Shown here piece after piece: positions 58,884 to 61,522 of a stretch of DNA of 64,000 bases (positions within the stretch are counted from its first letter, which is position 1; each line of letters begins with the position of its first letter). The position numbers and the translations under genes are program-made. Origin of the DNA: Phyllobacterium chamaecytisi (GTDB taxonomy: Bacteria > Pseudomonadota > Alphaproteobacteria > Rhizobiales > Rhizobiaceae); contig NZ_JAIQWW010000011.1 in NCBI RefSeq assembly GCF_020164455.1, positions 62,001 through 126,000 of the forward strand, written 5' to 3'. The notes beneath the pieces were generated by a model. That model saw only the letters and a list, made by a program, of their open reading frames with translations. It did no database searches and was not told the origin of the DNA.

Positions 58884-59087
58884 ATGCTTCCGCGTTCAGG
58901 AATCTATTATGCAGCTCAGCATATGCACCATGCACAGCGGGTCACATTGCCCCCGCATAAAATCAACGACTCTGAAATCACCTCCGCGGGTTATCGGGAG
59001 GAACTGGGTGTTTTCCTGCGCCTTTGGTTGGTCATCCTTGCGGGCGTAGCCGTCATCCTGCTGAGCAGCTGGCTGGTGACAAGCTGA
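58884..59087 (+). CDS. Small membrane protein
   Basis: A 67-residue protein with one C-terminal membrane helix (LRLWLVILAGVAVILLSSWL) after a polar N-terminus rich in His (AAQHMHHAQRV). AGAAGGA eight bases before the ATG at 58884 favours this start over an ATG at 58875. Its TGA overlaps the ATG of the next small gene by one base. I do not recognise it; probably part of the local stress gene set. Confidence 0.6.
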   Translation: MLPRSGIYYAAQHMHHAQRVTLPPHKINDSEITSAGYREELGVFLRLWLVILAGVAVILLSSWLVTS

Positions 59088-59254
59088 TGCGCGAACTGTC
59101 ACGAAACTCGGCTTCAGAGCGGTCTGAAGCCGAGGTTAAAAAACCGAACGGTCTGGCAGGAGATATCAAATCCATCAGATCGCTCATTCCGCTTGCGCTG
59201 GGGACGCTTGTCTTTATGGCAGCTCTTGCCTCCTTGATGAAACTCGTGCCCTGA
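59087..59254 (+). CDS. Small membrane protein
   Basis: A 55-residue protein with a charged N-terminal half (RNSASERSEAEVKKPNG) and one C-terminal helix (LIPLALGTLVFMAALASLM). The start overlaps the stop of the previous small gene (TGATG), so the two are translationally coupled. Function unknown. Confidence 0.55.
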   Translation: MRELSRNSASERSEAEVKKPNGLAGDIKSIRSLIPLALGTLVFMAALASLMKLVP

Positions 59255-59306
59255 TTGATCCAAAGGCCGCAGAAGCCATCCTTCCCGGCCTAATAGATTT
59301 TCAAAT

Positions 59307-59326
59307 CCTTATAGTTTTTTTATTTC
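59307..59326 (+). promoter_or_regulatory. KdpE-box-like T-rich element upstream of the kdp operon
   Basis: CCTTATAGTTTTTTTATTTC resembles the T-rich KdpE-binding site before E. coli kdpF (a TTATA block followed by a run of seven T). It lies 131 bp before the first small kdp ORF. KdpD and KdpE are not in the window, so the assignment is by similarity only. Confidence 0.4.
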
Positions 59327-59456
59327 TTCTCCCTGTGTCCCGTCTCGAACTTTTATGGTGTTTCGAGCCATATTCCGCCGCGATCAGCGAGCTTGGCAGT
59401 GTTGCCACTGCCCCATCTGATTGGACCATCTATGCAATCAATAAGGAGTTCTATCG

Positions 59457-59537
59457 ATGGACATTGTTGTTCTCGCGATAGGTATTTTGTTCTTCGTCCT
59501 CTCGCTGGCTTACACCAAAGCCTGCGATAATCTGTGA
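59457..59537 (+). CDS. 26-residue hydrophobic peptide ahead of kdpF
   Basis: MDIVVLAIGILFFVLSLAYT plus KACDNL is a single membrane helix with a short polar end. AAGGAG at 59443-59448 lies well placed before the ATG. It precedes kdpF by 16 bp on the same strand. Comparable peptides are found before kdpF in other proteobacteria; it may be an accessory Kdp peptide. Confidence 0.7.
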   Translation: MDIVVLAIGILFFVLSLAYTKACDNL

Positions 59538-59553
59538 CTGGAAGGAACGGCAA

Positions 59554-59643
59554 ATGACTATCGACTATATTCTCGGCGGCGCTGTGACCTTGTTCCTCCT
59601 CGTCTACCTCACCTACGCCCTCGTTCGTCCGGAGCGCTTCTAA
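59554..59643 (+). CDS. kdpF: Potassium-transporting ATPase small subunit KdpF
   Basis: MTIDYILGGAVTLFLLVYLT plus YALVRPERF, 29 residues, matches KdpF (single helix ending in ALxRPExF). KdpF stabilises the KdpABC complex in the inner membrane. GAAGGAA at 59541-59547 precedes the ATG. Its stop codon lies at the first base pair of the large hairpin before kdpA. Confidence 0.9.
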   Translation: MTIDYILGGAVTLFLLVYLTYALVRPERF

Positions 59644-59785
59644 GAACCCTTTGCCAATCCATCCCGATGGACGTCTGCAGTGGTTTTCTGCGCTTCCGGT
59701 GCTCATGGACGAGAAAGTCCACTGCGCTCCGGTTCTCGAAAACCGCAGCAGCTGTCGCATCGGGCTGAATTCTCAAAAGGGTTCT
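59643..59785 (+). ncRNA. Nested 143-nt hairpin between kdpF and kdpA (cis-RNA or palindromic repeat)
   Basis: Four stems nest in order. P1: AGAACCCTTT (59643-59652) with AAAGGGTTCT (59776-59785). P2: CCCGATG (59663-59669) plus GAC with GTC plus CATCGGG (59758-59764) and one bulged G. P3: CTGCAGTGGTTTTC (59675-59688) with GAAAACCGCAGCAG (59738-59751), 13 of 14 paired including one G-U. P4: CCGG/CCGG and TGGAC/GTCCA closing a GAGAAA loop at 59711-59716. It fills most of the 175-bp gap before kdpA. It could be a cis-regulatory RNA, a processing site or a dispersed intergenic palindrome. Confidence 0.75.
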
Positions 59786-59818
59786 ACAGCACTCGGCTAA
59801 GGCTCGGAAAGCTACACC

Positions 59819-61522
59819 ATGACTCTCAACGGTTGGATACAGATCCTCGTCTTCTGCGGGATCATCATTTTGCTCGTGAAACCGCTCGGCGGTTACATGA
59901 CGCGCGTCTTCAACGGCGATCGCACATTCCTTTCGCCCATCTTCGTTCCTGTGGAGCGAGGCCTCTATCGCATAGCCGGCACCAGCGAACGGGAAGAACA
60001 GCATTGGACCACCTACACGGCGGCGCTGCTGTTCTTCAGCTTGGCCGGCTTTGTGGTTCTCTATTTCTTGCAGCGGTTCCAGGGCGTCCTTCCCTATAAT
60101 CCCGCCGGAATGGGCGCAACCGAACCAAACCTTGCATTCAATACGGCTGTCAGCTTCGTGACCAACACCAACTGGCAAAATTATGGCGGCGAGAGCACGA
60201 TGTCTTATCTCGTGCAGATGGCCGGTTTCACGGTGCAGAACTTTGTTTCGGCAGCGACCGGTATCGCCATTGCGATCGCGCTCATTCGCGGTTTTGCACG
60301 AGCGTCCGGCAAGTCCATCGGTAACTTCTGGGTCGATCTGACCCGGTGCACGCTCTATATCCTGCTGCCGATCTGCATCGTCCTGACAGTCGTTTACGTC
60401 TATCTCGGCGTTCCGCAAACGCTCGGAACCTATGTGGATGCTACGACGCTGGAAGGCGCCAAGCAGACGATCGCTGTCGGTCCGGTTGCTTCGCAGCTCG
60501 CGATCAAGATGCTCGGCACCAATGGGGGCGGCTTCTTCAACGTCAATTCCGCGCATCCGTTCGAAAATCCCGATGCCATCTCGAATCTCATCCAGATGGT
60601 TACGATCTTTGCAATCGGTGCGGCATTGACCAATGTGTTCGGTCGCATGGTCGGCAATCAGCGTCAAGGGTGGGCGATCTTCGCTGCCATGGGCGTCCTG
60701 TTCCTGGCGGGTGTGATCGTCTGTTACTGGGGTGAGGCTGCCGGCAATCCACTGGTCCATGCTCTTGGGCTCGACGGCGGTAACATGGAGGGCAAGGAAA
60801 CACGCTTCGGCATAACCTTATCCGCGCTCTTCGCTGTGATCACCACTGCTGCATCCTGCGGTGCAGTCAATGCAATGCATGACAGCTTCATGGCGATCAG
60901 CGGCATGATCCCCCTCATTAACATGATGCTGGGTGAAGTGATCATCGGCGGCGTTGGTGCCGGTCTCTATGGCATCCTGCTCTACGTCATCATCGCAGTC
61001 TTCGTGGCTGGTCTGATGGTCGGTCGCACGCCAGAATATCTTGGCAAGAAGATCGAGGCCAAGGAAGTCAAGATGGCCATGCTGGCTGTTCTGGTTCTGC
61101 CTTTGGCAATGCTCGGCTTTACGGCGATAGCCACAGTGCTGCCGTCCGCGGTCGCTTCTATAGCGAACGCCGGTCCGCATGGCTTCTCGGAGATCCTGTA
61201 CGCCTATACTTCTGCAGCGGCGAACAATGGTTCGGCCTTCGGTGGTCTGTCGGGCAATACGGCCTGGTACAACATTACGCTCGGTATCGGGATGTGGATG
61301 GGCAGGTTCTTTGTCATCATTCCAGCCCTGGCGATTGCCGGTTCGCTGGTTGCCAAGAAAACCGTTCCGGAATCCGCGGGCACCTTTCCGACCCACGGCG
61401 GCCTGTTCGTTGGTCTGCTCGTCGGTGTCATCCTGATCGTCGGCGGTCTCACCTTCTTCCCGGCGCTGGCCGTCGGTCCGATCGTCGAGCACCTCGCCAT
61501 CGGCCTCGGGCAGACATTCTGA
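59819..61522 (+). CDS. kdpA: Potassium-transporting ATPase subunit KdpA
   Basis: A 567-residue membrane protein, the potassium-selective pore of the KdpFABC pump, with ten predicted helices. Selectivity-filter regions are visible: [47 protein letters not shown] and [16 protein letters not shown]. The length is standard. The ATG at 59819 follows the hairpin and GGCTCGGAAAG. The TGA overlaps the ATG of a small ORF by one base. Confidence 0.97.

Follow-up and report, generated by a model that had tools for sequence, protein, structure and literature searches.

The gap between kdpF and kdpA in Phyllobacterium chamaecytisi is occupied by one long nested hairpin, which raises the question of whether the operon carries an RNA element of its own or has received one copy of a repeat dispersed over the genome. 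The hairpin covers positions 59643-59785 of the window, i.e., the whole 64-kb stretch of DNA analyzed here, and was first noticed in a sequence-only reading that placed its onset at the kdpF stop codon and deemed chance folding unlikely. Both statements are borne out: the minimum free energy is -71.8 kcal/mol (z = -8.0), and none of 200 dinucleotide shuffles (mean -41.95, sd 3.73) reached the native stability. The hairpin indeed begins at the stop codon of kdpF and ends 33 nt before the start of kdpA at 59819, between two co-directional genes of the operon. A covariance model of the repeat family described below matches positions 59643-59786 with 157 bits, the sole copy inside the window, and the script used to define termini sets the element at 59644-59784. 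The features of the locus are listed here.

59554..59643, plus strand: kdpF, 29 aa (ORF list; C-terminal RPERF as in element-free relatives)
59641-59643, plus strand: TAA of kdpF, insertion site and left flanking trinucleotide (ORF list)
59644..59784, plus strand: palindromic repeat element, 141 bp (covariance-model hit, end script)
59696..59737, plus strand: conserved 42-nt core, CCGGTGCTCA(N3)AC(N6)GT(N3)CTnCGCTCCGGTTCTC (alignment A1; recurs in other alphaproteobacteria)
59785..59787, plus strand: TAC, possibly a degenerate right copy of a 3-bp target duplication whose left copy is TAA (flank comparison of copies)
59819..61522, plus strand: kdpA, 567 aa, downstream gene (ORF list, kdpA locus search)

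The termini of the kdp copy read GAACCC...GGGTTC, the consensus of the repeat family being GAGACC...GGTCTC, and the 42-nt core is the part that sets the orientation of the element. Positions 59000-60500 contained no Rfam family at gathering score, the sole match at E <= 10 being to an unrelated lncRNA family (E = 3), and a consensus scan of 59300-60000 returned neither a terminator-like nor a promoter-like site. Just 5' of kdpF, at 59457-59537 on the plus strand, lies a 26-aa ORF, MDIVVLAIGILFFVLSLAYTKACDNL. All 20 kdp loci compared, those of a divergent lineage included, have a comparable short hydrophobic ORF ahead of kdpF, apparently a second conserved microprotein of the operon.

Filled and empty kdp loci in the genus

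Twenty kdpA loci were recovered from 19 of 20 genomes of the genus, the host genome being designated G000. The element is present in the kdpF-kdpA gap at seven of these loci (G000, G002, G009, G013-C5, G018, G003, and G001), the last two of which belong to a divergent kdp lineage. Twelve loci are devoid of it, with a gap of 19-39 nt and the order of kdpF and kdpA intact, and one (G006:C9, L042) retains a core-less remnant, a 98-nt gap with outer-arm sequence that is probably a deletion product. Both states are found in G013, where the kdpA locus on C5 (L034) is filled and that on C3 (L050) is empty. The sequence-only reading had considered a cis-regulatory RNA, a riboswitch or a control of pump subunit ratio, and had named absence from close relatives with unaffected gene order, along with a lack of covariation, as speaking against these ideas; 12 of the 20 loci are of precisely this kind, and the remnant in G006 and the poor pairing in G009 count against them as well.

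The filled loci differ from each other. Among the intact copies of group 1 (G000, G002, G013-C5, and G018), arm sequences vary and the gaps still fold with -71 to -79 kcal/mol, so that some covariation does exist at kdp. This is the best sign at the kdp level of a structure that has been kept, but the same is to be expected of every copy of a palindromic repeat. Compensatory changes are found among copies at unrelated genes as well. The element of G009:C10 (L033) is chimeric, with a 5' half like that of G000 and a 3' half like that of G018; its weak pairing is due to the different source of the two halves and to small deletions, and it reflects either a recombination within the palindrome or an assembly fault. 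In the divergent lineage, the copy has other outer arms and the sister loci G012 and G016 are empty, from which we infer an independent hit on the same stop codon. A single insertion at the kdpF stop codon, which left kdpF complete, probably took place in an ancestor shared by some members of the genus, and a separate one at the same codon probably in the divergent lineage.

Dispersed copies and their insertion sites

BLAST searches with the kdpF-kdpA gap gave matches in 22 of 59 genomes (the host and 58 relatives), including 17 of the 20 genomes of the genus. A covariance model was then built from 14 copies of the host genome (alignment A1), and the copy counts obtained with it are lower bounds, 150 of about 2,500 first-look candidates having been scored per genome. 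The host genome harbors at least 98 matches, corresponding to at least 79 distinct places on 16 contigs once reverse-strand readings of the same palindrome are removed. Similarly, at least 108 matches (at least 90 distinct, of which at least 87 lie on the 3.87-Mb chromosome contig) were found in G013 and at least 28 (at least 20 distinct) in G007. Another suggestion of the sequence-only reading, a dispersed palindromic repeat that a genome search would reveal by many unrelated intergenic copies, is thereby upheld, the same site being filled or empty across species.

Gene context and flanks were analyzed for the best 30 of 79 copies in G000, the best 30 of 90 in G013 and 17 of 20 in G007, i.e., 77 copies at 59 unique sites. 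According to codon-usage gene calls, 68 of the 77 are intergenic, and the best 30 of the at least 79 host copies are located at many different genes. The ends GAG...CTC were assigned to 46 of 77 copies by a script that gave GAG/CTC a bonus. Beyond the genus, the exact 42-nt core pattern occurs in 43 of 297 genomes of the host's family (21 of 109 genera). It was retrieved in at least 117 stretches, the matches listed including Mesorhizobium, Brucella/Ochrobactrum, Devosia, Pleomorphomonas, Inquilinus, and Sphingosinicella, and palindromes surround it in the records of Brucella/Ochrobactrum and Mesorhizobium. A 35-nt arm query against plasmids retrieved three weak records.

Empty sites were searched in 10 relatives with the flanks of 12 host copies from which the element had been removed. 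A match spanning the junction was obtained for at least 8 of the 12, all 8 of which were aligned; the junction is readable nearly to the base at L186, L194, L202, and L207 and has diverged at L181, L185, L189, and L190. The alignments point to insertions, two of them with a duplicated TGA stop codon. At L202, the empty agcTGAcaagg corresponds to the filled agcTAA[element]TGAcaagg, and at L207 the natural TGA is retained on the left with TGA again on the right; the closest empty-site match, L186 (96%), is without TNA duplication. At L181, L189, L190, L202, L207, and kdpF, comparison with the empty relative puts the end of the upstream gene at the stop found there or about one codon away at most, indicating that these genes were not truncated by the insertion.

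The two trinucleotides flanking the element are identical at 9 of the 59 unique sites, 8 of them being TNA (shuffle mean 2.1, p ~1e-4), and are not identical at the other 50. TNA is found in the right flank at 19 sites (32%, vs. 5.5% of nearby positions), in the left flank at 21 and in both at 10. When orthologs are included (77 copies), identical 3-nt flanks number 12 vs. 2.9 expected, with no 4-nt identity. TNA targeting with a 3-bp duplication is therefore an enrichment, which is not seen at every site. The family has many dispersed and mostly intergenic copies, terminal inverted repeats, target duplications and empty sites, all of which are features of a bacterial MITE or non-autonomous palindromic repeat.

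Orientation relative to genes and replication

The left end of the element is preferentially located at stop codons. For 43 of the 77 copies, the stop of a co-directional ORF with 90 codons or more falls -1 to +4 nt from the left end, against 3 of 77 in a mirror test that considered the right end and genes of the opposite strand; for unique sites, the figures are 32 and 2 of 59. Upstream genes are co-directional at 58 of the 68 intergenic copies. Likewise, 90 of 120 exact-core hits (not de-duplicated) have the end of a co-directional ORF with 150 codons or more nearby, and for 51 of these 90 it lies 50-56 nt before the core, a stop-to-core spacing that recurs in other alphaproteobacterial genera. 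The mirror side of these hits presents no comparable peak, with 9 in the interval -54 to -48, 12 in the best outer 7-nt interval and 7 at one position within the core. Anchored stops show no significant excess of TAG (18/53 vs. 78/311, p = 0.18), and TNA targeting alone does not explain why the left end only is tied to stop codons.

An orientation that depends on replication, by way of the sliding clamp, is described for transposons in PMC5371812, where Gomez (2014) is cited. On the chromosome of G013, 20-kb samples have a positive GC skew between 1.2 and 3.0 Mb and, for the most part, a negative one in the remainder, and the copies are distributed as 42 plus and 3 minus in the 1.1-3.1 Mb arc and 12 plus and 30 minus outside. 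The orientation is that of the leading strand in 72 of the 87 chromosomal copies of this lower-bound set (Fisher 3e-10; 12 runs vs. 42 expected). This also exceeds the 55.8% of coding bases that are leading in the first 20 samples of G013 (p = 2e-7). Exceptions to the rule (15 copies) cluster, perhaps owing to inversions that the repeats reveal. A block of eight plus copies against the rule lies at 3.40-3.63 Mb of G013:C5, a segment with weak skew in the samples, and the two plus copies located at 24 and 131 kb are beside a sample at 100 kb with positive skew (+0.0225).

The host genome and another genus gave comparable pictures. In G000, 59 of 63 neighboring copy pairs have the same orientation, the maximum in 20,000 permutations being 46; no second copy was found on the host contig that carries the kdp copy, and this neighbor-based polarity covers the other contigs. 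In G206, a member of another genus, 12 of the 13 copies in the sampled range follow the rule: all 8 copies are plus in the sampled 0.10-3.12 Mb arc, with positive skew in 8 of 11 samples, and 4 of 5 are minus in the sampled 3.40-4.62 Mb arc, with negative skew in 5 of 5. For the remaining 5 of its 18 copies, located beyond the sampled stretches, the rule would hold too with a switch between 3.26 and 3.36 Mb. Among the best 29 chromosomal copies of G013, 19 of the 20 anchored at stops and 7 of the 9 away from them obey the replication rule, and both non-anchored exceptions fall in the 3.40-3.63 Mb block. Since copies away from stops also follow replication, the two rules look separable on these small numbers.

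Origin of the element and alternative explanations

In our view, the kdp hairpin probably belongs to a family of dispersed, non-autonomous and MITE-like palindromes that would be moved in trans by an IS5-family (IS1031-like) DDE transposase. Insertion sequences of the IS1031 group have ends that begin with GAG, and the combination of GAG...CTC ends with a 3-bp TNA duplication as in this group is best read as that of a MITE-like palindromic repeat. According to the available part of a description of the IS1031 group of the IS5 family, its members share the TNA target and the 3-bp repeat, and in ISLrh, given as an example, the terminal repeat opens with GAACC (PMC12016507); the present element differs by being without an internal transposase gene, and no parent IS was found among the searched families PF13340/PF13586. 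The transposase would act in trans on the terminal repeats and cut at TNA, TGA and TAA stop codons being such sites. Insertion orientation would depend on replication, as for transposases that touch the sliding clamp, an orientation bias described in the accessible portion of PMC5371812. The element is ordinary in kind and unusual in its two placement rules.

DUF4096 transposases were detected in 5 of 9 genomes, with none in G000, G002, G013, and G006, and DDE_Tnp_1_2 matches in 4 of 6, with none in G000 and G002. The models PF13340 and PF13586, which we take to cover IS1031-group transposases, had no match in G000 or G002. A simple script found no element-like ends at 13 DUF4096 loci from relatives, nor at any of the 17 transposase loci of relatives taken together, which represent the two families searched (PF13340 and PF13586), and an IS1031-type parent among these loci was accordingly rejected. 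The parent IS is either gone, of another transposase type, or overlooked by the simple end search.

A palindrome of the IS200/IS605 or RAYT type, whose hairpin is the substrate of single-strand transposition and is inserted in the lagging-strand template, would be in line with the large hairpin and with the replication polarity seen in G013, G000, and G206. An orientation bias is indeed described for IS200/IS605 (PMC5371812, available part), and in GTAG REPs the TAG stop of an adjacent ORF is often contributed by the repeat terminus, as stated in the available part of PMC3733652. Such an origin is nonetheless quite improbable: Y1_Tnp (PF01797) was found in 0 of 14 same-genus genomes vs. 5 of 14 control genomes with the same search, which led to the rejection of IS200/RAYT as the mover, and 3-bp TNA duplications are present. 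To our knowledge, target duplications are not expected of an IS200/IS605- or RAYT-type mechanism. Selection rather than targeting might also be responsible for the placement, the copies being kept for the action of the hairpin at the 3' ends of leading-strand mRNAs or as a polar mark of the chromosome. The anchoring of the left end only, the constancy of the stop-to-core spacing across genera and the presence of the element after kdpF in two kdp lineages argue for this proposal, as do Escherichia coli REPs located <=15 nt from a stop codon, which are reported to cause ribosome stalling and trans-translation (PMC5082802, accessible part). Against it, the copies off stop codons mostly follow replication too, empty sites are common among species and mismatches between the arms are more often A-C than G-U (see below), so that we hold it to be unlikely. 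The broader idea that alphaproteobacteria at large harbor mobile palindromes whose insertion is coupled to replication direction and gene ends, with an integration complex that would recognize the stop codons of leading-strand genes and set the left end there, is put forward as a speculation that is rather unlikely to hold. If true, every copy would provide a co-directional mRNA with a fixed hairpin at its 3' end and would at the same time mark the polarity of the replichore. Intergenic palindromes of this sort are common, and they are generally regarded as passive debris or RNA elements; the stop rule, the strand rule and the target duplications together offer a handle on what chooses the site, the candidates being selection at the 3' ends of mRNAs, the replication fork and the transposase.

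Bru-RS1 and Bru-RS2 of Brucella were reportedly described by Halling and Bricker in 1994, and RIME, the Rhizobium-specific intergenic mosaic elements, are said to go back to Osteras in 1995. Membership of the present element in one of the named alphaproteobacterial families (Bru-RS, RIME or CIR) is possible, albeit doubtful. Bru-RS are palindromic, intergenic in the described cases and from the same bacterial order, and the 42-nt core lies within palindromes in Brucella/Ochrobactrum and Mesorhizobium records; however, the available parts of their descriptions give 103-106 nt, or 118 as model, vs. about 141 nt here, and contain neither stop anchoring nor replication polarity (PMC2267715, PMC3163539, PMC10800456, PMC2266754). 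RIME resemble the element, by description alone, as intergenic repeats of rhizobia (PMC2245857, available part). CIR of Caulobacter and Brucella are likewise intergenic repeats of alphaproteobacteria, of about 110 bp, but are described in the accessible part of PMC2229807 with two hairpin arms and a conserved GANTC, whereas the element forms one hairpin and GANTC is not enriched in it (33 of 82 copies vs. 34.7 expected). The same partial source presents ERIC, RUP, and Correia elements as non-autonomous, 100-200 bp long and endowed with stable stem-loops and target duplications, like the present repeat, from which they differ by TA at their termini and by their occurrence in other bacterial groups (PMC2229807).

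GTAG/CGTC REPs are also palindromes near the 3' end of the upstream gene, but they measure 20-40 bp and are proposed to be moved by RAYT, no Y1 transposase being found in the 14 same-genus genomes; TNA duplications and replication polarity are unmentioned in the available part of their description (PMC3733652). As REPs are known near gene 3' ends and supply TAG stops, the stop rule sharpens a tendency already on record. Within the accessible parts of the open-licence PMC literature, no earlier account was found of repeats of this kind that obey the replication rule, nor of the two rules combined.

The initial question of a cis-acting RNA of the kdp operon, such as a processing element, an attenuator or a riboswitch, can be considered in the light of these data. 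The very stable fold, its site between co-directional operon genes and the four intact group-1 copies that vary and still fold are compatible with an RNA, as are compensatory changes at 14 of 45 pairs among the 14 dispersed host copies (A1), a count inflated by relatedness among copies. We judge this explanation very improbable, given the absence of the element from 12 of 20 kdp loci with one further loss of the core and one case of poor pairing, the at least 79 host copies, the best 30 of which lie at many different genes, and a locus with no Rfam family and no terminator-like site. In addition, A-C mismatches exceed G-U ones among 82 distinct forward rows (132 vs. 89, p = 0.005), the opposite of what plus-strand RNA predicts, so that selection on such an RNA is not favored; a strand mutation bias could add to this excess. 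The transcribed hairpin may affect the kdp mRNA as a by-product of the element, and its retention for that role is without support. A strong fold between operon genes can represent a mobile repeat instead of a riboswitch. In alignment A2 (82 copies), mispaired intermediates are nearly absent at the apical pairs of columns 89/107 and 91/105, which alternate between C-G and T-A or among G-C, T-A, and A-T, as if both arms had changed together.
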